A DNA stretch of 35,072 nt, from the NCBI GenBank assembly GCA_012026685.1, contig VEOY01000037.1, positions 1 through 35,072 of the forward strand, given 5' to 3'. Below the pieces are notes generated by a model. It was not told the DNA's origin and made no database searches. It was given only the letters and a program-made list of their open reading frames with translations. Both the position numbers and the translations under genes were made by a program. This DNA comes from Nitrospirota bacterium (lineage in GTDB: Bacteria > Nitrospirota > Thermodesulfovibrionia > Thermodesulfovibrionales > UBA6898). Shown in pieces: positions 21,038 to 32,681 of this stretch; the first letter of the stretch is position 1; every line of letters starts with the position of its first letter.

Positions 21038-21544
21038 TTACCTGACTGCCTTGAGAATTCCGTTCAGCAGGTCTGTCGGAGAAGGTGGGCATCCGGGGAC
21101 ATAAGCATCCACGGGGATGATCCTGTCGATGCCGCCCAGAGAGGCATAGCTCTCACCGAATATGCCGCCGTTGCATCCACAATCACCGACAGCAACCACC
21201 AGCTTCGGAGAGGGCGTAGCATCATAGGTCCTGCGGAGCGCGATCTCCATATTCCAGGCAACCGGTCCGGTGACGAGCAGCATATCGGCGAAACGCGGTG
21301 ACGCAGTGAAGTGCATGCCGAACCGTTCGCAATTGTATATCGGGTTGTTCATGGCATGGATCTCGAGCTCACAGCCATTGCATGAACCGGCATCCACCTG
21401 CCTTATCGTAAGGCTTCTTCGGAACCGCTGCCGTATGGCCTCTTCAAGTTTGGCCCCGACCTCCCTGATCTCCTCTTCGAGCGCCGGAGGCAGCTGCTCG
21501 GTTACAATGCCTGTCCTGAAGATCTGTCTGAGTATCCGTATCAT
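21038..21544 (-). CDS. HyfI/NuoB-like iron-sulfur subunit of an Ehr complex
   Basis: 168 residues, the small peripheral subunit homologous to HycG/HyfI and NuoB. The cysteines that bind the proximal 4Fe-4S cluster are present: C55 and C58 (SCNGCELE), C122 (GDCGCNGG) and C152 (PGCPPSP). So this subunit can carry a cluster even though the large subunit cannot hold NiFe. The ATG overlaps the large-subunit stop (ATGA), and the gene closes the operon. The 196 bases between it and the convergent PilZ gene hold no feature I can name. Confidence 0.92.
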   Translation of the reverse strand: MIRILRQIFRTGIVTEQLPPALEEEIREVGAKLEEAIRQRFRRSLTIRQVDAGSCNGCELEIHAMNNPIYNCERFGMHFTASPRFADMLLVTGPVAWNMEIALRRTYDATPSPKLVVAVGDCGCNGGIFGESYASLGGIDRIIPVDAYVPGCPPSPTDLLNGILKAVR

Positions 21545-23115
21545 AGATCGTGTCCCGAATAGGACTGGTTAAAGCTCTTATTGCAGAGCGGAAAATCCGG
21601 CACGATATTGCCGAGCACGGCCAGTTCAAGTCCAAGCCAGTTGATGCTGGACGGGTCCCGTACCATGCAGCGGTTGATCTCGCCTGCCGGTCCGGACTGA
21701 AGCCAGTAGATGATTTCCCCCCGCCATCCCTCAACAGCAGAAAATCCCGAACTGTCAGGAGCAGGCTGACCGGCAGGCACGTGGGTCCCGGTGTCCGGCA
21801 TCTCTTCGATCATCTTGCGGACGATCCTGATCGACTCCCGCACTTCCTGTATCCTCACCCATGCCCGTGCGTGCACATCCCCCGAAATGAGGACGGGCAC
21901 ATCGAGTTCCATCCATTCATGCCGGTCGTAGGGAGGGAACGGATTGAAGATGCGGCAGTCAAGATTCAGGCCGCTTGCCCGGGCCACGATCCCGACAGCA
22001 CAAAGCTCTCGGGCCCTGGCAGGCTTCAGTATGCCCGTATCCCTCACTCTGTCCTCAAGGGAAGGGTTTTCATCGTATATCGTGACCAGTTTTTCGAAAT
22101 CCGCAGCAAGCATATCCATCTCTGCGAGGATCTCCCGCTTGCCGGCAGGCTCGATATCGACGGTCACACCGCCGGGAACGACCCTGTCCATCATAAACCG
22201 GTGGCCAAAAAGCCTGAGGTTCGTGCGGAGGAGCATCTCCTTGAGCCGCGAAAGCTGGTACAGCATGAAGGCGAATGCGGCGTCGTTGCAGATAGCGCCT
22301 ATATCGCCGAGGTGGTTCGCTATGCGTTCGCGTTCAAGGAACAGGGCCCTGAGCCAGTGGGCCCGTTCGGGCACCTGGCACCCTGTCATGGATTCCATGG
22401 CCATACAGTAGGCAAGAGAATGGGCAACCGTGGTGTCCCCGGAGACCCTACCCGCAAGCTTTGCGCCATCCTGCCAGACAAGTGATTCAAATTTCTTCTC
22501 TATGCCTTTGTGCACATAGCCCAATCGTTCCTCGAGGTTGATCACGTCCTCGCCGACCGCCTGAAAGCGGAAATGACCCGGCTCGATGATCCCGGCATGA
22601 ACCGGGCCGACCGGTATTTCGTACACCCCCTCGCCTTCAGCGCGTGTCCAGATATATTCGCCTGTGACCCTCGGCATCCGTTGTGCTGCATCAAATGATT
22701 TCCTGAGCGGCCACGCTTCCGCGGGCCAGTCCTCAAATTTTATCCACGGACGCACATCCGGGTTCCCTGCAGCCGCTATCCCCATCAGGCTCATGATCTG
22801 ACGTTCAAAGCGGAATGCCGGGACAAAACTCCGGCAAAGACTGGGGAACCAGGGATCGCCGGACGGCACCTCGGTCTTTACGATCAGATATTCGCTCCCC
22901 CACCGGTAACAGGCAAATACCCCGTACCCCCTGCCCAGCGAGGTCTCATCCGAAGCCCATTCTGCGGCGAGGAGCGCATAGGCCTTTTTCATCACCTTTG
23001 CAGCCTCACCGAACCGGTCTCTCGGTACAACACAGGCAGAGACCGAAGCGGGACGCTGGCTGCCGTCAAACCGGACATGCCCGCCGAATGCCGCAATTAT
23101 CGCCTCTTTCAGCAT
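21541..23115 (-). CDS. HyfG/NuoCD-like large subunit lacking all NiFe ligands
   Basis: 524 residues: a NuoC-like N-terminal part (about 1-150) fused to a NuoD/large-subunit part. In HycE/HyfG, NiFe is held by R-x-C-G-x-C and D-P-C-x-x-C. Here the first reads RVSGDTT (223-229, Ser and Thr replacing the cysteines). The second, at the extreme C-terminus, reads FNQSYSG (515-521, Ser and Gly). Alignment is anchored by IVPDFPL just before it. It cannot hold a NiFe centre of the known kind, so the product belongs to the energy-converting hydrogenase-related (Ehr) group. A GAGGG box precedes ATG 23115. A palindromic repeat separates it from the hyfF-like gene. Confidence 0.9.
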   Translation of the reverse strand: MLKEAIIAAFGGHVRFDGSQRPASVSACVVPRDRFGEAAKVMKKAYALLAAEWASDETSLGRGYGVFACYRWGSEYLIVKTEVPSGDPWFPSLCRSFVPAFRFERQIMSLMGIAAAGNPDVRPWIKFEDWPAEAWPLRKSFDAAQRMPRVTGEYIWTRAEGEGVYEIPVGPVHAGIIEPGHFRFQAVGEDVINLEERLGYVHKGIEKKFESLVWQDGAKLAGRVSGDTTVAHSLAYCMAMESMTGCQVPERAHWLRALFLERERIANHLGDIGAICNDAAFAFMLYQLSRLKEMLLRTNLRLFGHRFMMDRVVPGGVTVDIEPAGKREILAEMDMLAADFEKLVTIYDENPSLEDRVRDTGILKPARARELCAVGIVARASGLNLDCRIFNPFPPYDRHEWMELDVPVLISGDVHARAWVRIQEVRESIRIVRKMIEEMPDTGTHVPAGQPAPDSSGFSAVEGWRGEIIYWLQSGPAGEINRCMVRDPSSINWLGLELAVLGNIVPDFPLCNKSFNQSYSGHDL

Positions 23116-23287: not shown

Positions 23288-24748
23288 TCATTTCAGCAGC
23301 TCCACGGCAGTATGGAACCAGACATTCAGGAAGTCGGGCATGTAAAGGCCGAGCATCAGGACCAGAATGAGATGCAGAAGCACCGGCAGATGCGCCACCT
23401 TCATCGGCTTCTGGTATGAGGGCACATCGCCTGCCACCATGGGCTGCACCTTGCGGAAAAGCGCGGCGAAGGCCACTCCGAGACCCAGGAGAAGGAACGG
23501 CGTAAGATATGGAGCATCCTTCATGGTGGCGGTAAGTATCAGGAACTCGCTCGTAAAGATACCGAAAGGCGGCATACCCACAATGGCCATGACACCGAAC
23601 ATGAGGCCCCAGCCGACAAGGGGGTTGCCCTTGAACAAGCCCCTGATCCGCGACATATCCTGTGACCAGTGCATCTGGGATGCATGTCCTACCGTGAAGA
23701 ATATGGCGGATTTCGCAAGGCTGTGCACCAGCATGTGAAGAAGCGCTCCGAACGTGGCGATGGGCCCCCCCAGACCGAATGCGAAGGTAGCAATCCCCAT
23801 ATGCTCTATGGACGAGTAGGAGAACATACGTTTTATGTCCTTCTGGCGGAGAAGCGAAAAGGCCGCAACAATGATCGAAAGCAGGCCGAAGCCCATCATG
23901 ATGTAGCCGGCATGATGTGTACGGGTCGATCCGTCAACAAGCACCTTGCATCTCACCAGCGCATACAGCGCAATGTTCAGGAGGAGGCCGGAGAGCACTG
24001 CTGAAATAGGAGTAGGACCTTCGCTGTGCGCATCCGGCAGCCAGTTATGGAGCGGCACCAGCCCCACTTTTGTACCATAGCCTACCATCAGAAAGACAAA
24101 CGCCAGGGACAGCACCGTAGGTTCCAGGCTTCCGCTCACCCTGCTCAGGTTCGTCCACAAAAGGGCCTCGCCTCCCTCGCCGCGCACTTTTTCCGCGGCA
24201 AAATACAGCAGCACGGTACCGAAAAGGGCCTGTGCGATCCCGACGCCGCAGAGAATGAAATATTTCCAGGCCGCCTCGATAGCCGTCGGAGTGCGATACA
24301 GCGAGACCAGCAGGACCGTTGAGAGCGTCGCAAGCTCCATGGCTATCCAGAGCACCCCCACATTATTGGTCAGCAGGCAGAGGAGCATTGCGAAGATAAA
24401 GAGCTGGAACATGGCATGGTAGAACCTCATGCCAACGTGGCCGACGCGCCCGTGCTCGCGCTCCCTGCGCATGTATCTCCGGCTGAAGATGGCCGTGGTC
24501 ATCGACACGAATGCAGTCAGCACGGAAAGGTACACATTGAAGGCGTCGACAAAGAAGAATTTCCCGCCGGCAAGCATCGGGCCCTGCATATATACCTCAA
24601 GCGCAAGGCCCAGGCCGGCAGCAAAGGTGGCAGCGGAACCCAGGATGTTTATTTCCGGGGCAAACTTCCGATCACCCACAAAGGCGAGGACCACCGCTGA
24701 GCAGAGCGGCATACCGAGAAGGATGAGGAGCATCATGCTGCTGGTCAC
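23288..24748 (-). CDS. HyfF-like (NuoM/N-type) antiporter-like membrane subunit
   Basis: 486 residues with about 13-14 transmembrane helices, of the Mrp-antiporter/NuoM family. The proton-channel glutamate lies in LWIAMELATL (TM5), and the lysine in GYGTKVGLVPLHNWLPDAH (TM7). A later lysine lies in VHSLAKSAIFF. It is thus expected to pump ions. The start is GTG 24748, two bases after the hyfE-like stop; ATG 24736 with an AAGGTGA box 8 bases upstream is an equally good start. A palindromic repeat follows its stop. Confidence 0.9.
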   Translation of the reverse strand: MTSSMMLLILLGMPLCSAVVLAFVGDRKFAPEINILGSAATFAAGLGLALEVYMQGPMLAGGKFFFVDAFNVYLSVLTAFVSMTTAIFSRRYMRREREHGRVGHVGMRFYHAMFQLFIFAMLLCLLTNNVGVLWIAMELATLSTVLLVSLYRTPTAIEAAWKYFILCGVGIAQALFGTVLLYFAAEKVRGEGGEALLWTNLSRVSGSLEPTVLSLAFVFLMVGYGTKVGLVPLHNWLPDAHSEGPTPISAVLSGLLLNIALYALVRCKVLVDGSTRTHHAGYIMMGFGLLSIIVAAFSLLRQKDIKRMFSYSSIEHMGIATFAFGLGGPIATFGALLHMLVHSLAKSAIFFTVGHASQMHWSQDMSRIRGLFKGNPLVGWGLMFGVMAIVGMPPFGIFTSEFLILTATMKDAPYLTPFLLLGLGVAFAALFRKVQPMVAGDVPSYQKPMKVAHLPVLLHLILVLMLGLYMPDFLNVWFHTAVELLK

Positions 24749-24750
24749 CT

Positions 24751-25416
24751 TCAGTCACTCTCCTTCAATTTCGCCATCTGTTCCACGTCGAGGCTGTCAA
24801 ACGTAGTATGGATATGAAAAAAGAATATGCCGAAAATAAACGCAGCGATGAGCACGTCGAGGGCAACGCCCAGCTCAACAACAAGAGGCATGCCGTAGGT
24901 GGCGCTCGTGGCGGCAAAAAAGAGGCCGTTCTCCAGCGCCAGAAAGCCGATGATCTGCGTAACGGCATGTCTTCGCGTTATCATCATGAGAAGACCGAGC
25001 ATGACCGTTGCGAGCGCCACGGCCAGAGTTGAACGCGTTATGAGCGTGGACAGTTCCCTGATGGGCGCCGTGAGGTGATAGGAAAATATGACCAGTGCTA
25101 TGCCGATCATCATGGTCATGGGGATATTCACGACCGTCTCGACCTCCTTGCGGATCCTGAGGCGATTGATCAGCACATGGAGGATATAGGGAAGGACAAC
25201 CACCTTCAGGGAAAGGGTCAGCACGGACGATATATACAGATGGTGCTTGTTCGCCACAAATCCGACAACCGCGGTGTTCAGCGACAGGAAGAAGCCCTGC
25301 CATGCAAACAGATGAATGAGGCCATAGATCCTTTTCTGCACCAGCATGCCGAATGCGGTCAGAAGAACCAGGGCTGCGAGAAAACTGTTTATCTGTGACG
25401 CCATATGCAGGTTCAT
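24751..25416 (-). CDS. HyfE-like membrane subunit
   Basis: 221 residues with about seven membrane helices. The C-terminal part is NuoK-like, with a membrane glutamate in FLALENGLFF. HyfE is found in hydrogenase-4-type and Ehr complexes. It lies one base after the hyfC-like stop and two before the hyfF-like start, so it is co-translated. ATG 25416 is used; ATG 25404 is a possible internal alternative. Confidence 0.87.
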   Translation of the reverse strand: MNLHMASQINSFLAALVLLTAFGMLVQKRIYGLIHLFAWQGFFLSLNTAVVGFVANKHHLYISSVLTLSLKVVVLPYILHVLINRLRIRKEVETVVNIPMTMMIGIALVIFSYHLTAPIRELSTLITRSTLAVALATVMLGLLMMITRRHAVTQIIGFLALENGLFFAATSATYGMPLVVELGVALDVLIAAFIFGIFFFHIHTTFDSLDVEQMAKLKESD

Positions 25417-25417
25417 A

Positions 25418-26362
25418 TCAGTCCAGGATATAATAAGCCAGCATCCCCAGCGTAGCCATCAGGAATGCCGAGCCCAAAAATTCGGTTAACCGGAAAAGTC
25501 TCATCTTTGCGAGGCCGGTCTCTATCAGGACAAGAATCACCCCTGACACCGCAAGCTTGAGCAGCAGGAATACGAATGCGAGAACCACTCCCACCGCACT
25601 GCCCGTCGCATCTATTCCCCAGGGGAAAAACAGTACGGCTCCGAGCGACATGAACAAAAAGAGCTTCATCATGCCTGCCCACTCTATCAGCGCAAGGTGC
25701 CTCCCTGAATATTCAAGTATCATTGCCTCGTGGATCATGGTCAGCTCCAGGTGCGTCGCAGGATTGTCAACAGGAATCCTGCCGGTCTCCGCGAGGCTGA
25801 TCAGCACAAAAGCAAGGAACGCAAAGGCAAGTGACGGCCTCAGCACAGACTGGCCGCTGTAAATCACCTGCACGATCTGCGACAATGACGTAGACCTGGC
25901 TGCCAGGGATATGGTGAATATCGCCATGAGCATGGCCGGCTCTGCAAGTGAAGCTATGGTCATCTCCCTGCTTGACCCCATGCCGCCGAAAGCCGTGCCG
26001 ATATCCATTCCCGCCAGCGCGGTAAAGAAACGGGCGATGGCAAAGAGCGCAACAAGCACGATAACGTCGGCCGTGGCAGACAGAGGCAGGTCAATGGACA
26101 ACATCGGGATGATCCCGCCTGCAAGCACGGTCGTCCCGAACACGAGATATGGGGTGAAACGGAAAATCCAGGATGCGTTCTCCGCAAGGACCACATCCTT
26201 TGCGAAAAGTTTGCTGATGTCACGGTATGGCTGAAGCAGTCCTGCAGACGTCCGTCCCTGGGACCAGCACTTCAACATCCTCACCCATCCGATAAAGGCC
26301 GGCGCAATGCCGAGAACGATCGCGATCTGCAGTATCTCTGATATAAAGGGATAAACGTTCAT
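25418..26362 (-). CDS. HyfC-like (NuoH-type) membrane subunit
   Basis: 314 residues with about eight helices. NuoH-family hallmarks are visible: LLQPYRDISKLFAKD near residue 50 and AETGRIPVDNPATHLELTMIHEAM near 195, the loop that contacts the peripheral arm. This subunit joins the redox arm to the pump modules. Its ATG overlaps the hyfB-like stop (ATGA). Together with hyfB, hyfE and hyfF it makes a complete membrane arm. Confidence 0.93.
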   Translation of the reverse strand: MNVYPFISEILQIAIVLGIAPAFIGWVRMLKCWSQGRTSAGLLQPYRDISKLFAKDVVLAENASWIFRFTPYLVFGTTVLAGGIIPMLSIDLPLSATADVIVLVALFAIARFFTALAGMDIGTAFGGMGSSREMTIASLAEPAMLMAIFTISLAARSTSLSQIVQVIYSGQSVLRPSLAFAFLAFVLISLAETGRIPVDNPATHLELTMIHEAMILEYSGRHLALIEWAGMMKLFLFMSLGAVLFFPWGIDATGSAVGVVLAFVFLLLKLAVSGVILVLIETGLAKMRLFRLTEFLGSAFLMATLGMLAYYILD

Positions 26363-28404
26363 CTCATAAATATCAGCAGGACAATAATAGTGACAAAGGA
26401 ATATATCAGATATGCCTGAATGCGGCCCTGCTGCAGCCTGCCCGCCGTGCGTGATATCCAGAAGCTGATATCGACAATCGGTTTATATAACCAGTTCCAG
26501 AAACGGTCCCTGATGCGGAGATAATAATGCATCCTCCTCGGGAAGGCCCTGTGCGGTGCCTGAGGGTTCAGTCTCACCTGCTCCCGGATACTGAAGAGGA
26601 AGCCGAATATCCGCCGTATCGGCATGGAAAAAGCAGTGGCGGTGTACTGCATCCTCGGCGTCACCTTCTCAAATCCACAGTCCCAGAGCGGCACCCGTTT
26701 AATGGATCCGGCCCTGACATGCAGCAGAAGATATGCGATGACAATAACGGACAGCGTCACCAGGAACACGAGCGGCCCTGAGTACGATGCGCGTTCCCGG
26801 GCCACAGGTGTCAGCCACATCCATCCGAAGGCGCCTGCTGACTCGCCTATCCGGGTCCCCACAAGCTGTCCGGACACCGTGTCCATCCAATCTATGACCA
26901 GCGTGGGCAGTATGCCGAAGCAGAGGCAAAGGGCCGCAGCCATGATCATGCCAACCCGCATAAACCAGTCTGCTTCATGGATGTGCGGTGTATGGTGACC
27001 GCGCCAATGTCCCAGGAACGTAACACCGAATGCCTTCACAAAGCAGGCAGCCGCCAGGGCCGCGGTAAGTGCAAGGAGTGCAGCTCCCATCGGGATAAGA
27101 AGCTTCATCAACGGACTCGGCAGAGAAGGAGAGAGCAGGAATGCCTGGAAGGTAAGCCATTCCGAAACAAAACCGTTAAAGGGAGGAAGTCCTGATATCG
27201 CAATGCAGCCGACAAGAAAAAGCGCTGCGGTCCACGGCATGTAACGTATGAGGCCTCCCATCTCCTCCATGTTCCTTTCGCCGGTCGCGTGCAGCACGGA
27301 ACCGGCGCCCATAAAAAGGAGCCCTTTGAAAATCGCGTGGTTCAGGGTGTGGTAGAGCCCCGCAGTAAGGGCAAGGGCAGCGAGCAGGGGAAAGTTAAAG
27401 GAGCGGAATATCATGGCCAGCCCTATGCCGATCAGAATGATCCCGATATTTTCGACCGAATGATACGCGAGGAGCCTCTTGAGATCATGCTGCATCAGGG
27501 CATACAGAACACCCATGACCGCCGAAATGAGACCGAATACCAGGACAACCGTTCCCCACCACCAGGGAAAGACCCTGATGAGATCAAAGGTCACCCTCAC
27601 AATGCCGTATATGGCGGTCTTCAGCATCACGCCGCTCATCAGAGCAGATACGTTCGAGGGGGCGACAGGGTGGGCCTCAGGCAGCCAGACATGCAGAGGG
27701 ATTACGCCGGCCTTTGCGCCAAAACCGACGAATGCGAGCAAAAATGCAGCAGTCGCCCACGCAGAAGGGAATTGGGCCTGGCGCATGGCATCGAACGTAT
27801 AGCCATGAAACCCTTCAAACCCCGTGGCAAGGCCGGACATGACCCCGAACGACAGGAGAATGGCGATGGCACCTACATGGGCAACGACCATATACAAGAA
27901 CGACGCCCTTCTGTTTTCCACGCGCTCGTCCTCAAAAAAGACGAGAAAATATGAAGCCGCCGCCATAACCTCCCATGATATGAGAAAGAAGAGCGCATCG
28001 TCCGCAAGTATGACCATAAACATCCCGGCGAGGAACAGGGCATAGAAAATCACCAGGCGCGTTATGGGCCTCTGCCGCGCGATCCCTTTGACATAGCCCA
28101 GAGAATAGACGGATACAATAAATGAGAGCAATCCCACAACAGTCATAAAAAAGCCAGCAAGCGGATCGAGCCTGAGGTGGAACGGCAGGTCAGGAAGTCC
28201 TATGGACATGACCGCCTGAATGGCGATATTGCTGCCAACTACCCAAACCCCGGCGGCAGTAGCGGCCAGAGAAGCTGCAGCGGCCGCAATAAAGCTCAGA
28301 GTATTCAGCAGGCGCTGGCGTCCGGTCAGAAACATGGCCAGAAAAGCCATTGCAAAGAGCAGGAATATTGCGCTTCCTGCAAGATTCAGGGGATCCAGCA
28401 TCAT
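26359..28404 (-). CDS. HyfB-like (NuoL/M-type) antiporter-like membrane subunit
   Basis: 681 residues with about 15-16 helices and a long C-terminal cytoplasmic tail (about 590-660) as in HyfB. Conserved channel residues are E in FLISWEVMAAAS (TM5), K in GFGAKAGVIPLHVWLPEAHP (TM7), H in LYHTLNHAIFKGLLF, and that K. It is the first structural gene of the operon. Its ATG overlaps the stop of the HTH/EIIA regulator (ATGA), so regulator and complex are translationally coupled. Confidence 0.92.
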   Translation of the reverse strand: MMLDPLNLAGSAIFLLFAMAFLAMFLTGRQRLLNTLSFIAAAAASLAATAAGVWVVGSNIAIQAVMSIGLPDLPFHLRLDPLAGFFMTVVGLLSFIVSVYSLGYVKGIARQRPITRLVIFYALFLAGMFMVILADDALFFLISWEVMAAASYFLVFFEDERVENRRASFLYMVVAHVGAIAILLSFGVMSGLATGFEGFHGYTFDAMRQAQFPSAWATAAFLLAFVGFGAKAGVIPLHVWLPEAHPVAPSNVSALMSGVMLKTAIYGIVRVTFDLIRVFPWWWGTVVLVFGLISAVMGVLYALMQHDLKRLLAYHSVENIGIILIGIGLAMIFRSFNFPLLAALALTAGLYHTLNHAIFKGLLFMGAGSVLHATGERNMEEMGGLIRYMPWTAALFLVGCIAISGLPPFNGFVSEWLTFQAFLLSPSLPSPLMKLLIPMGAALLALTAALAAACFVKAFGVTFLGHWRGHHTPHIHEADWFMRVGMIMAAALCLCFGILPTLVIDWMDTVSGQLVGTRIGESAGAFGWMWLTPVARERASYSGPLVFLVTLSVIVIAYLLLHVRAGSIKRVPLWDCGFEKVTPRMQYTATAFSMPIRRIFGFLFSIREQVRLNPQAPHRAFPRRMHYYLRIRDRFWNWLYKPIVDISFWISRTAGRLQQGRIQAYLIYSFVTIIVLLIFMR

Positions 28405-29093
28405 TCTGAAGCACCAGCCTTGAAGATCTCCTGCTCCTTCGATGAGAACAGTGTGATAAGCTCCTCCGGCCTGAGCTTCTTCTTTATGGCAGACAGAAGC
28501 TGCTCGTCCCGCAAGAGCCTGGAGAGCTTGGCATGTATCCTGAGGAATCTTCTTTCAGTCTTCGGAAAAATGAAAAAAAGCGTCTCCACATATTCATTGT
28601 CCGGCGCATTGAACGGTATCGGCCCCGCAAGCCGGCAGAGTGCGACCGAAGACAGGGACGCGGTGAATTCCTTGAATGGTCGGGGATGAGGAAACGCGAT
28701 GGCATTGCCTGCAGACGTGGAGCAGAGACGTTCCCTCTCCATGATGGCAGCGAAGAGCCGCCGGATGTCGATCTGCGGTATGGATGACTTGATCCGGTCG
28801 AGACACGACATGATAGCCGTTTCCCTCGAGTCACCGGGCACATCATAATGAATGCCGCCCCTTCCCATCAATGCCGTGATAATGACCGACTCATCATCCT
28901 GAGAAGAGCCCTTGCCGGATGCATCGTAACGGAACTCTCTGGTGTCTTCTATCCATGACGAGATTTCCCTTCGGTCAAACCGCCACTGACCGCCGACACG
29001 GAAGCAGGGTATTGTTTCTTCCTTGATCATGCGGTAGATGGTTTTTTCCGACACACTCAGAAGCTCAGCTACCTCTTTTACACTGAGTATCAT
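28401..29093 (-). CDS. Excisionase-type HTH fused to a PTS EIIA (PtsN-like) domain
   Basis: 230 residues. The N-terminal HTH_17 module (1-50) reads LSVKEVAELLSVSEKTIYRMI and ends with GGQWRFDRREISSWI. The C-terminal EIIA type-2 domain (about 90-225) carries the phosphorylatable H136 in AIAFPHPR. The ERLCSTSAGNAIAFPH run matches the EIIA-Ntr signature. I set the start at ATG 29093 because AAAGGA lies 4 bases before it; the open frame to 29285 crosses the promoter. It heads the Ehr operon behind a near-consensus promoter and overlaps hyfB. It probably autoregulates the operon in response to nitrogen-type PTS phosphate; no PTS partner is in the window. Confidence 0.87.
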   Translation of the reverse strand: MILSVKEVAELLSVSEKTIYRMIKEETIPCFRVGGQWRFDRREISSWIEDTREFRYDASGKGSSQDDESVIITALMGRGGIHYDVPGDSRETAIMSCLDRIKSSIPQIDIRRLFAAIMERERLCSTSAGNAIAFPHPRPFKEFTASLSSVALCRLAGPIPFNAPDNEYVETLFFIFPKTERRFLRIHAKLSRLLRDEQLLSAIKKKLRPEELITLFSSKEQEIFKAGASE

Positions 29094-29138
29094 AATGTCC
29101 TTTAATGTCTCTTTTTGTACCATGCTGTCAAACGCTGT

Positions 29139-29167
29139 ATCATAATTAAACGGTTTTCTCTTGTCAA
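29139..29167 (-). promoter_or_regulatory. Sigma-70 promoter of the regulator-Ehr operon
   Basis: On the minus strand a perfect TTGACA (29162-29167) and a TATGAT (29139-29144) are separated by exactly 17 bases. The start point near 29132 would leave a leader of about 40 bases with an AAAGGA box (29098-29103) before ATG 29093. No other promoter of this quality is seen inside the operon. Confidence 0.78.
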
Positions 29168-29269
29168 GAAGTATGTATTTACCAGTTCTGACAAAGATTG
29201 TCATCCCGAAATCCGCACATGTCGGATGACCGTTATCCAACAGAGCAGCCATGAAGGCAAATTGATTGA

Positions 29270-29305: not shown

Positions 29306-29797
29306 ATCAGTCAGGTCATCATAGACGGGTATAATCTTATCGGCGTACAGCACCGCGACCTTCGCAGGAAACGGGAGGAGCTCATACAGCAGCTTATCGC
29401 CTATAAAAACCGGAAAGGGCATGATATAACTGTCGTATTCGACGGCTGGCGGACCGGCGGTCACCAGCAAGAGCAGACATCAGCCGGGGGTATTCGTGTC
29501 GTCTATTCACGGCTCGGGGACCGCGCCGATGACGTGATCAAAAAGATGATGGAGCCTGACGGAAAGGAGCGGATTGTCATTACCTCAGACCGTGAGATCG
29601 CAGAGCATGCGTGGTCACGGGGCGCCGTTCCGGTGCCTTCCGCTCAATTCATGGAGCGTCTTGAACGGAACGACCTGCGCCCGGCGGGCACATCCGGGGA
29701 CGAGGGCAATGGGGAAGATGAGATGCGGGGCCGGGGCAACCCGCGGCAGCCTTCAAAAAAGGAAAAGGCGCTTATCCGGGTCCTCAGGAAACTGTGA
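29306..29797 (+). CDS. YacP-like NYN-domain (PIN-fold) ribonuclease, apparent ATC start
   Basis: About 163 residues of the YacP/Rae1 NYN family, RNA endonucleases with a PIN-like fold. The acidic active-site set is visible: D7 in VIIDGYNLIG, D in TVVFDGW, the pair in RADDVIKKM, and D in VITSDRE. The C-terminal tail is basic and low in complexity (PSKKEKALIRVL). The frame opens after a stop at 29267, and no ATG, GTG or TTG precedes the conserved core. The AGGAGG box points to ATC 29306 as the initiator (ATA 29300 is the alternative), unless the base is a sequencing error for ATG. The stop overlaps the PAP2 start by one base. Confidence 0.8.
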   Translation: MSQVIIDGYNLIGVQHRDLRRKREELIQQLIAYKNRKGHDITVVFDGWRTGGHQQEQTSAGGIRVVYSRLGDRADDVIKKMMEPDGKERIVITSDREIAEHAWSRGAVPVPSAQFMERLERNDLRPAGTSGDEGNGEDEMRGRGNPRQPSKKEKALIRVLRKL

Positions 29798-30678
29798 TGC
29801 TGAATGTCCTGCTGCAGCTCAGGCCTGCCGATGCCCTGAATTTCTTCTTTCTCGCCATCCTTACGGTCATCACGGTCGCTTACCGCCATGTCGTGGATCA
29901 TACGGCGCATCTCATTTTGCTCTATTCCGGGCTGTTCTTCGCGCAGGCATTCCTCATCCTGTTCAGGGAAAAAAACAGGGCCTTTCATTGGGTCTACCAC
30001 CTGATCTTCCCGACCATATCGATACTTGTCATCTTTGACAGCCTCGGGCATCTCGTGCATGCGATCAACCCGCAGGACATTGACCCCCTGCTCATCAGTC
30101 TCGACCGTCTGCTGTTCGGAGGCCATCCCACGGTCATGATGGAGCATATCATGACACCTCTTCTGACAGACCTTCTCCAGCTTGCCTATTCGAGCTATTA
30201 TTTTCTCCCGGTCACGCTGGGCGCGGTCCTCCTGATCAGAAGGAGGGAAGATGCCTTTGATCGTTCTCTCTTTCTCATCATGTTCTGTTTCTATCTGTCA
30301 TATGCCGGGTACCTTCTCTTTCCTGCGCTTGGTCCCCGCTTCACCATGAACCACCTCCAGCATGAAGAACTGCGCGGCCTGTTTCTGACGGGACCGGTCC
30401 AGGAACTGCTGAACAGACTCGAGGGCATAAAGCGGGATGCGTTCCCAAGCGGGCATACCGGTATAGCCCTCACGGTCCTCGTTCTTTCCCGGCAATATGA
30501 AAAAAAACTGTTCCGCCTGTTCCTTCCTTTTGTAACGGCGCTGATATTTTCGACGGTTTACCTCAGGTACCATTATGTGGTAGATGTATTAGCAGGGGTG
30601 ATACTTGCCGCCCTGACACTATTTCTGGGAGACGCGTATTATGGATACTGGCAGAAAAGATTCCGTTCTGGTCATTGA
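29797..30678 (+). CDS. PAP2-superfamily membrane lipid phosphatase or phosphotransferase
   Basis: 293 residues with six or more membrane helices. PAP2 motifs lie at FPALGPRF (about 175-182), FPSGHTG (216-222, H220) and YLRYHYVVD (255-263, H259 and D263), which gives the H-H-D catalytic set. The usual lysine-rich first motif is weak, as in the PAP2_3/Aur1-like branch that includes inositol-phosphorylceramide synthases. The substrate could be undecaprenyl or phosphatidyl phosphates, or a ceramide acceptor; the last is only suggestive given the sphingolipid-type genes elsewhere in the window. ATG 29797 is preferred over GTG 29794. Its end overlaps the response-regulator start by 38 bases. Confidence 0.83.
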   Translation: MLNVLLQLRPADALNFFFLAILTVITVAYRHVVDHTAHLILLYSGLFFAQAFLILFREKNRAFHWVYHLIFPTISILVIFDSLGHLVHAINPQDIDPLLISLDRLLFGGHPTVMMEHIMTPLLTDLLQLAYSSYYFLPVTLGAVLLIRRREDAFDRSLFLIMFCFYLSYAGYLLFPALGPRFTMNHLQHEELRGLFLTGPVQELLNRLEGIKRDAFPSGHTGIALTVLVLSRQYEKKLFRLFLPFVTALIFSTVYLRYHYVVDVLAGVILAALTLFLGDAYYGYWQKRFRSGH

Positions 30679-31345
30679 GGACGAGAAAAAGATCTCGGAT
30701 ATCGTCAGGGCCTACCTCGAAAAAGAAGGATACAGGGTAAGGATAGCCGAAAACGGCAGGGACGCCCTCGCACTCTTCTCGGAAGGGCCTGACATCATCG
30801 TGCTCGACCTCATGCTTCCGGACATGTCAGGTGAAGAGCTTTGCAGCATCTTCAGGGAAAGCTCGGACGTGCCGATCATCATGCTCACGGCAAAGAGCGG
30901 TGAAGAGGACAGGATCAAGGGTCTCGGCATCGGTGCCGATGATTATATGGTCACGCCGTTCAGCCCGCGAGAACTGGTGGCCCGGGTCAAGGCGCACCTG
31001 AGAAGGGCCGGCAAGATAAAGAAGAAGGTCCTGAGTTACAACAAGGGCAGGCTCAGGCTGGACCTTGAACGGCATGAAGTGGTGAAAGAAGGCATGCCCC
31101 TTCAGCTCACTCTTACGGAATTCAAGATACTGACCGCGCTTGCCGAGAACCACGGAAGGATCCTTTCACGCAATCAGATCGTGAACATTGTTCAGGGCTA
31201 TGACTTTGAAGGATACGACCGGACCATCGATGCACATGTGAAAAATCTCCGCCACAAGATCGAAAGAGACTCCAAATCCCCTGAGTTCATACAGACGGTC
31301 TACGGCGTGGGCTACAAATTCATCGGGACACCGGATGCGGAATAA
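30641..31345 (+). CDS. OmpR/PhoB-family response regulator with Lys-to-Thr receiver change
   Basis: 234 residues: a receiver (1-115) and a winged-helix DNA-binding domain (about 135-230, ending TVYGVGYKF). E13-D14, phospho-acceptor D56 (IIVLDLMLP) and T83 are present. The invariant lysine before P106 is T105 (DDYMVTPFSPRE, where KPF is expected), so phosphorylation-driven switching may be altered. The start at ATG 30641 has a GGGAG box and lies within the end of the PAP2 gene. The partner kinase overlaps by 11 bases. Confidence 0.93.
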   Translation: MDTGRKDSVLVIEDEKKISDIVRAYLEKEGYRVRIAENGRDALALFSEGPDIIVLDLMLPDMSGEELCSIFRESSDVPIIMLTAKSGEEDRIKGLGIGADDYMVTPFSPRELVARVKAHLRRAGKIKKKVLSYNKGRLRLDLERHEVVKEGMPLQLTLTEFKILTALAENHGRILSRNQIVNIVQGYDFEGYDRTIDAHVKNLRHKIERDSKSPEFIQTVYGVGYKFIGTPDAE

Positions 31346-32681
31346 GCTCTTCCTCGCCTTTCTCGCGGTCATCTTCCTTGTCATCGTCTCACACCTCATT
31401 GACGAACAGCTGATAAGCCGGGATTTCGATGACTATGTCAACGGCACCAGGGAGGACAAACTGTACTGGGTCCTTGCCTCGATCGAGGGCAGTTATGCTG
31501 ACGGGAAATGGGATAATATGCCGCTGCATGAAGCGCTTCACTGGGCGATCATGCTCGGTTTCGATGTCAGGGTGCTGGACATTAATAAAAGAGAAGTGAT
31601 CAACTCCGCGATGGTGATGGGTATGCTGTCGCCTTCCATGAAGCGGCGCATGACATCCATTACAGATCTTTCTTCTGCAACCGGCGAATTCGAGCCCTAT
31701 CCGCTCTATGAAGGCGGGAAAGAGATCGGCACCCTGCTTGCGAGAAAGCTGAGCAGGCCGGGAGTAGACAAGAAAGAGGCCGACTTCAGGCAGCGGGGAA
31801 AATATTTTCTCGTAGTCTCCTCGGTCATCGCCGGCGGAGGGGCGCTCCTGTTGGCGCTCTTCTTTACCCTGTTCTTCTCGCGCCCGCTCAAGAAGATGAA
31901 AGAAGCGGGTGAGGCAATGGCAAACGGTGACCTTTCGGTCAGGGTATCCACGGCAGAACGTGATGAGATCGGTCGTTTGGCAGAAAGTTTTAACTACATG
32001 GCCGAGGCACTCCAGAAGGAAGACGCCCTGCGGCGGCGCCTCACCTCGAACATTGCTCATGAACTGCGGACACCACTGGCCGTGATGAAAGCAAATGCCG
32101 AAGCTATGATCGACGGCGTCGTCGCTGACCACGCACAGGGACTTGAAAACATACGGCTGGAGATCGAGAAGCTCATTCGGCTCGTGGAAGGTATAGAGGA
32201 CATCACAAAAGCTGAGGCAAGCTTTTTTTCGAAAAAAGACCATGCGGAGATCGATCTGTCCGAATTCCTCGCGCGGATGGCGTCGACCATGCTTCCCCTC
32301 GCTGCCGAAAAAGGGCTGCATATGACGGCACCGCCGGAAAGGAGCATTCGCGTTATAACTGACCCGGAAAAGCTCGAACGCATACTGCAGAACATTCTTT
32401 CCAATGCCATAAAATACACGGAAAAAGGAGAGATCAGTATCGATTGCGGACAGAAGAAAAAAAGGTTCTTCATCGAAGTCAGGGATTCAGGAATCGGCAT
32501 CCCTGAAGACAAGAAGGAGCTTATCTTCAGGAGGTTCTATCGGGGTGACAGATCCCATGGCATTGGACTGGGGCTGGCAATCGTGAAAGAACTGCTCGAT
32601 GTCATGGGGGGAAGCATCGAAGTGGACAGCTCAGAAGGGAAGGGAACAACATTCAGGATATGGCTCCCGGAAAACCCGTGA
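31335..32681 (+). CDS. Sensor histidine kinase (HAMP, HisKA, HATPase_c)
   Basis: 448 residues. Transmembrane helices at about 4-20 and 158-182 flank a periplasmic domain of about 135 residues of unknown ligand. HAMP (about 183-235), HisKA with H242 (NIAHELRTPLAV), and a complete HATPase_c follow: NILSNAIKYT as N box, DSGIGIP as G1, and GIGLGLAIV as G2. It overlaps its response regulator at the start. The operon also holds the NYN, PAP2 and YggU genes, so an envelope or lipid stress signal is possible. Confidence 0.93.
   Translation: MRNKLFLAFLAVIFLVIVSHLIDEQLISRDFDDYVNGTREDKLYWVLASIEGSYADGKWDNMPLHEALHWAIMLGFDVRVLDINKREVINSAMVMGMLSPSMKRRMTSITDLSSATGEFEPYPLYEGGKEIGTLLARKLSRPGVDKKEADFRQRGKYFLVVSSVIAGGGALLLALFFTLFFSRPLKKMKEAGEAMANGDLSVRVSTAERDEIGRLAESFNYMAEALQKEDALRRRLTSNIAHELRTPLAVMKANAEAMIDGVVADHAQGLENIRLEIEKLIRLVEGIEDITKAEASFFSKKDHAEIDLSEFLARMASTMLPLAAEKGLHMTAPPERSIRVITDPEKLERILQNILSNAIKYTEKGEISIDCGQKKKRFFIEVRDSGIGIPEDKKELIFRRFYRGDRSHGIGLGLAIVKELLDVMGGSIEVDSSEGKGTTFRIWLPENP

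Follow-up and report, generated by a model that had tools for sequence, protein, structure and literature searches.

An HTH_17-EIIA fusion protein encoded ahead of an Ehr operon in Nitrospirota: a candidate PTS-independent regulator with a 10-bp repeat array

The REG-Ehr locus and its conservation

The window (the whole stretch of DNA analysed, 35,072 nucleotides of a Nitrospirota genome) carries on its minus strand a regulator gene, here called REG, followed downstream by a six-gene operon for hydrogenase-4/complex-I-like subunits. The first-pass annotation had placed this gene at 28401-29093, and its limits were confirmed, with 230 codons and a stop; an alignment of 29 sequences backs the start codon. 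The features of the locus, with the operon subunits assigned from profile matches, are as follows.

29139..29167, minus strand: promoter, TTGACA-N17-TATGAT
29096..29131, minus strand: candidate operator, four direct repeats of xxGACA type at 10-bp spacing (TTGACA, GGTACA, GAGACA, AGGACA)
28401..29093, minus strand: REG, a regulator of 230 aa with HTH_17 and EIIA fold (ATG at 29093, stop TGA at 28403-28401)
28944..29087, minus strand: HTH_17 domain, residues 3-50 (Pfam E 2.6e-17)
28440..28853, minus strand: EIIA-fold domain, residues 81-218 (PTS_EIIA_2, Pfam E 1.1e-16)
28686..28688, minus strand: codon of H136, numbered from the ATG at 29093
28401..28404, minus strand: ATGA overlap of the REG stop and the hyfB-like start
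26359..28404, minus strand: HyfB/NuoL-like Ehr membrane subunit
25418..26362, minus strand: HyfC/NuoH-like Ehr membrane subunit
24751..25416, minus strand: HyfE-like Ehr membrane subunit
23288..24748, minus strand: HyfF/NuoN-like Ehr membrane subunit
21541..23115, minus strand: Ehr large subunit (NuoC+D-like), without CxxC pairs (also by motif check)
21038..21544, minus strand: Ehr small subunit (NuoB-like)

Divergent to REG, at 29308-32681, lie a gene that we take to be NYN-like and genes for a PAP2-like phosphatase, a response regulator and a histidine kinase; these remain neighbours of REG in several genomes. Since the large subunit lacks the CxxC motifs that form the Ni/Fe cysteine pairs, the operon was assigned to an Ehr-type complex and not to a NiFe hydrogenase, in line with a passage of PMC6349859 that defines Ehr complexes by group-4-like subunits and a large subunit without those pairs. 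An excerpt of PMC7894505 reports Ehr subunits of Geobacter to be more abundant on formate and states that the role of Ehr in that genus had never been studied.

The arrangement is conserved. Among 29 orthologs, one of which (L097) lies at a contig end, a hyfB-like gene adjoins REG in all 28 readable loci, and so conserved a gene with so constant a neighbour is not a chance reading frame. The two genes are co-directional in 26 of these loci and divergent in two (G009/L109 and G017/L108). The ATGA coupling to the Ehr operon proposed in the first pass is borne out by the overlap at 28404-28401, and the same 4-nt overlap recurs in 18 of the 26 co-directional pairs. All 26 pairs fall within -65 to +23, although the value of -65, seen in two pairs, is doubtful because starts were taken as the earliest possible. 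Distances between REG proteins track those between HyfB proteins (Pearson r=0.81, a value as high in 0 of 2000 permutations). The 29 orthologs are related, and counts over them are therefore not independent. A distant HTH-EIIA homolog in genome G080 also stands directly before a hyfB-like gene. The proposal that REG is a DNA-binding regulator heading the Ehr operon is thus supported by a conserved arrangement, as far as sequence can indicate function.

A 10-bp direct-repeat array behind the promoter

The near-consensus promoter that had been predicted for REG is present, reading TTGACA-N17-TATGAT at 29167-29139. It lies inside 29130-29170, the region put forward earlier for binding assays; the candidate operator, at 29096-29131, had been missed. 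The array starts immediately after the -10 element, and a fifth in-phase ACA overlaps the end of that element. TTGACA was exact in 27 of the 29 best promoter calls made on the orthologs, and in L102 and G028 a TTGACA promoter was seen by eye.

Direct repeats of the form xGGACAA run between the -10 element and the ATG in REG orthologs. With a unit defined as at least four of the five letters of GGACA with ACA intact, at least two tandem units at exactly 10 bp were found upstream of 26 of the 29 orthologs, compared with 0.94 of 29 expected from dinucleotide shuffles of the same upstreams. Spacings of 8, 9, 11, 12 and 13 bp were found in 0, 1, 0, 0 and 1 of the 29, respectively. By this strict count, two regular units were absent from L089, L098 and G002. 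The array of L102 has about ten units, and a further ortholog outside the count of 29, in G167, has two by eye.

The repeats accompany REG itself. Upstream of Ehr operons without REG, two units were found in only one of 17 cases, and that genome (G058) retains a REG remnant; these 17 come from 19 REG-less genomes, G011 and G026 having been left out with assemblies 70% and 66% complete. In the genome of the window, a three-unit pattern with one mismatch allowed occurs once, at the REG promoter. A wider regulon was considered and rejected: over 61 genomes the array pattern was not enriched, with 69 matches where its reversed control had 101, in a search that recovers the REG promoter in only seven of 13 REG genomes.

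An EIIA fold without a phosphorelay

The earlier description of an HTH_17 joined to an EIIA domain with H136 is confirmed, and both domains of REG score above their curated cut-offs: 61.5 bits against PF00359 (cut-off 27) for the EIIA domain, and 63.3 bits against PF12728 (27) and 54 bits against TIGR01764 (28.8) for the HTH. REG falls below the NCBIfam cut-offs of the PtsN equivalog TIGR01419 (50 bits, cut-off 138.7) and of HTH_BldC (21.6 bits, cut-off 77; a weak match, E 1.4e-4). H136, part of an AFPHPR motif, is shared by all 29 orthologs; its counterpart in an alignment with E. coli PtsN is the active-site His, which we take to be H73. An AlphaFold2 model, built with the 29 orthologs as input, had a mean pLDDT of 82.8; Foldseek matched its EIIA part to 1a6j (E 8e-8), and VIA matched the model to 2oqt (Z 17.7, rmsd 2.1, 147 aligned), the VIA matches covering mainly residues 67-230 of REG and hardly the HTH fold. 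REG shares its fold and its active-site His and Arg with PtsN/EIIA-Ntr proteins (PF00359; 1a6j, 3urr, 4gqx), but is fused to an HTH_17 domain, belongs to a lineage without Enzyme I (EI) or HPr, has Phe or Tyr in place of the second His and has gained C124. An EIIA-like fold outside any PTS is also known from the cytoplasmic domain of anion exchanger band 3 (VIA Z about 12), a eukaryotic membrane protein with only 12% sequence identity to REG.

REG is the single EIIA of PF00359 type in its genome (assembly 97% complete, 213 contigs). Of the distant matches from the genome scan (L114-L128), most have the HTH but no EIIA motif. A mobile-element origin for REG was rejected, as phage and plasmid matches were partial, below 60% identity, and none covered 80% of the query. 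The first-pass view that such a regulator is uncommon is only partly right, because a chlamydial gene, ptsN_2, is already annotated with the HTH plus EIIA architecture. We know of no link of this gene to Ehr, and EI and HPr are both present in Chlamydia. In part of PMC5723314, ptsN_2 (Cpn0061 of Chlamydia pneumoniae) is annotated as 'PTS IIA protein + HTH DNA-binding domain', and so resembles REG in its annotated domain architecture.

Four residues, R120, C124, H136 and C153, never vary across the 29 orthologs (an alignment of the window's REG, 25 loci and loci of three further genomes), and T126, G129 and P135, which adjoin R120 and H136, are among the other invariant positions. The second His of PTS EIIAs helps phosphotransfer. 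At that position, which is His in E. coli PtsN (H120, by our assumption) and in other solved EIIAs, the 29 orthologs have Phe (26) or Tyr (three); it is F183 in the REG of the window.

The first-pass annotation had suggested that phosphate from a nitrogen-type PTS sets Ehr expression, and had proposed a search for PTS donor genes as a check, with the lack of any donor in the genome to count as refutation. None was found. EI and HPr were each absent from all 61 genomes searched (that of the window and 60 relatives). So was HprK above the cut-off, with partial sub-cut-off matches in 11 genomes, including those of the REG carriers G017 and G018. Among 395 genomes of the phylum, REG was found in 21 at E <1e-100 (close orthologs) and in G080 at 3.9e-30, while EI was found in 25, above the cut-off in 24, and the EI search therefore works in this phylum. 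None of the 21 close-ortholog genomes has EI, and only G080 pairs a REG homolog with it. The loss of the second His from all 29 orthologs likewise speaks against the suggested PTS control. The only EI-like match from the order in the phylum draw is a 1016-aa protein, also sigma-54-activator-like, at L206:3736-6786 in G242.

The G080 protein (L201:3318-3992) has both domains and the same place before a hyfB-like gene as REG. It differs in having 30% identity to REG, an EI in its genome, the second His, Gly at the C124 position and no upstream repeats; C153 is kept. A deltaproteobacterial HTH-EIIA protein (L113) also keeps the second His. With a single EI-bearing genome in the sample, the correlation between EI and the second His is a lead and not a law.

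Two orphan EIIA proteins of 266-280 aa are encoded in EI-less genomes of the same order (L145:1702-2544 in G025 and L146:2194-2994 in G042), each with a gene for a cation-transporting P-type ATPase immediately upstream. Both keep CPH and have Tyr at the second-His position, as seen by alignment for G025 and by eye for the near-identical G042. This His-to-Tyr change may hint at a general route of EIIA reuse.

A proposed self-repressing switch and its alternatives

We suggest that REG is probably a dedicated, PTS-independent, BldC-like self-repressing switch of the REG-Ehr operon. We infer that REG binds the repeats, represses and responds to a sensed signal; by analogy, its binding mode would be that of BldC. 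An extract of PMC5859096 describes BldC as binding 9-bp direct repeats, variable in number, head to tail. BldC belongs to the same HTH class as REG and likewise has sites with a variable number of direct repeats, about one unit per turn, but its repeats are 9 bp and it has no effector domain, where REG has 10-bp repeats and an EIIA fold. RdfS, also of this HTH class, forms head-to-tail filaments according to a section of PMC11963761. The HTH_17 domain of REG would thus bind the 10-bp repeats head to tail and co-operatively, and the occupied array, reaching from about the transcription start to the start codon, would block the strong promoter. The Ehr genes, predicted to share the transcript of REG and to be translationally coupled to it, would come under REG control by this route.

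The EIIA-fold domain would not be a member of a PTS relay, having lost the second His while keeping Arg120, His136 and their neighbours and gaining Cys124. Because REG carriers lack a phosphorelay, this module has probably taken on another sensing role, most likely as an effector pocket through which the filament on the DNA is loosened or tightened. The signal would be independent of a PTS and could reflect redox or metabolite levels, or else the state of the Ehr complex. A portion of PMC13104625 notes that EIIA-Ntr proteins often act unphosphorylated, via protein contacts.

Several other explanations were weighed against this switch. The one that survives best, though we regard it as unlikely, is that the EIIA domain acts solely as a scaffold for oligomerisation and that REG represses itself without any signal, keeping Ehr at a fixed level. 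The single array target in the genome of the window would fit such a role, as would the repeated loss of REG without loss of Ehr. REG is dispensable, a point that also weighs against the proposed switch, being present in only 12 of 31 genomes that have a close Ehr large subunit. On the tree of that subunit its presence changes eight times, five of them forced by well-supported branches, and 79 of 500 shuffles clustered the REG label at least as well, the pattern to be expected for a gene that is patchily distributed and frequently lost. Within the genus of the window, G001 and G005 have the same flanking genes with REG missing. Pieces of REG persist before hyfB in G039, G050, G042 and G058 (loci L140, L143, L141 and L135), where the Ehr operons are intact; in G039 and G050, REG is reduced to end pieces, its promoter is kept and two repeat units are now 9 apart by eye. 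Against a mere scaffold, the residues held invariant include those of the pocket. No replacement regulator common to REG-less Ehr operons was seen when 17 neighbourhoods were inspected by eye.

Less likely again is phosphorylation of H136, as the signal, by a non-PTS donor, either a small-molecule phosphate or an unrelated kinase. The invariance of H136 could equally mean phosphorylation by some such donor, and R120, T126, G129 and P135 are as constant as H136 in 29 orthologs without a PTS. However, the second His has given way to Phe or Tyr, and the searches for EI, HPr and HprK offered no candidate donor.

Two further explanations we hold to be improbable, and to the same degree. In one, another factor binds the repeats, or they act in the mRNA leader, for instance as GGA motifs for a CsrA-type protein. 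The last unit does overlap the likely ribosome-binding site (by eye), but the exact 10-bp phase suits DNA better than RNA, the GGA core is present in at most 48 of 96 units and the arrays accompany the presence of REG. In the other, REG controls only itself and stands before Ehr by accident. Such a role is conceivable in the divergent genomes G009 and G017, where repeats were found at the REG promoter only and none at the Ehr promoter, so that REG may control only itself there. The adjacency in 28 of 28 loci, the conserved ATGA overlap, the congruent divergence of REG and HyfB, the like position of the G080 homolog and the survival of the promoter before Ehr when REG decays all argue against an accident. 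The divergent Ehr promoter, in the REG-hyfB intergenic region of L040 and L041, has an inverted repeat inside its spacer (ATCGGG-N5-CCCGAT in L041), a possible site for another regulator.

Finally, classic nitrogen-type PTS control, with EI and HPr phosphorylating H136 to set Ehr expression, is very improbable for REG: its EIIA fold is close to that of PtsN with H136 and R120 invariant, and the distant G080 homolog, with both histidines and an EI in its genome, suggests that an ancestor of REG may have worked by PTS, but the donors are missing from the genome of the window and 60 relatives (HprK above cut-off), EI is missing from all 21 close-ortholog genomes of the phylum draw, and the second His is lost in all 29 orthologs.

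For the self-repressing switch we would add a more specific and tentative idea, which we think less probable than the switch itself. After loss of the PTS in this lineage, C124, H136 and C153, together with R120 and the Phe or Tyr at the second-His position, may have become a site responsive to redox state, metal or metabolites, at which a BldC-like repressor filament on the 10-bp array is made to assemble or dissolve; Ehr expression would thereby follow the respiratory chain and its state.

A search of the open-licence PMC literature returned no paper on REG, its repeats or its link with Ehr, nor did we meet there a BldC-like operator of direct repeats paired with a regulator that carries an effector domain, the combination that REG would represent. 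In REG, a phosphorelay module has stayed strongly conserved in genomes that lack the relay, a clear-cut natural example that comes with a defined candidate operator, and the poorly understood Ehr complexes would gain a dedicated regulator.
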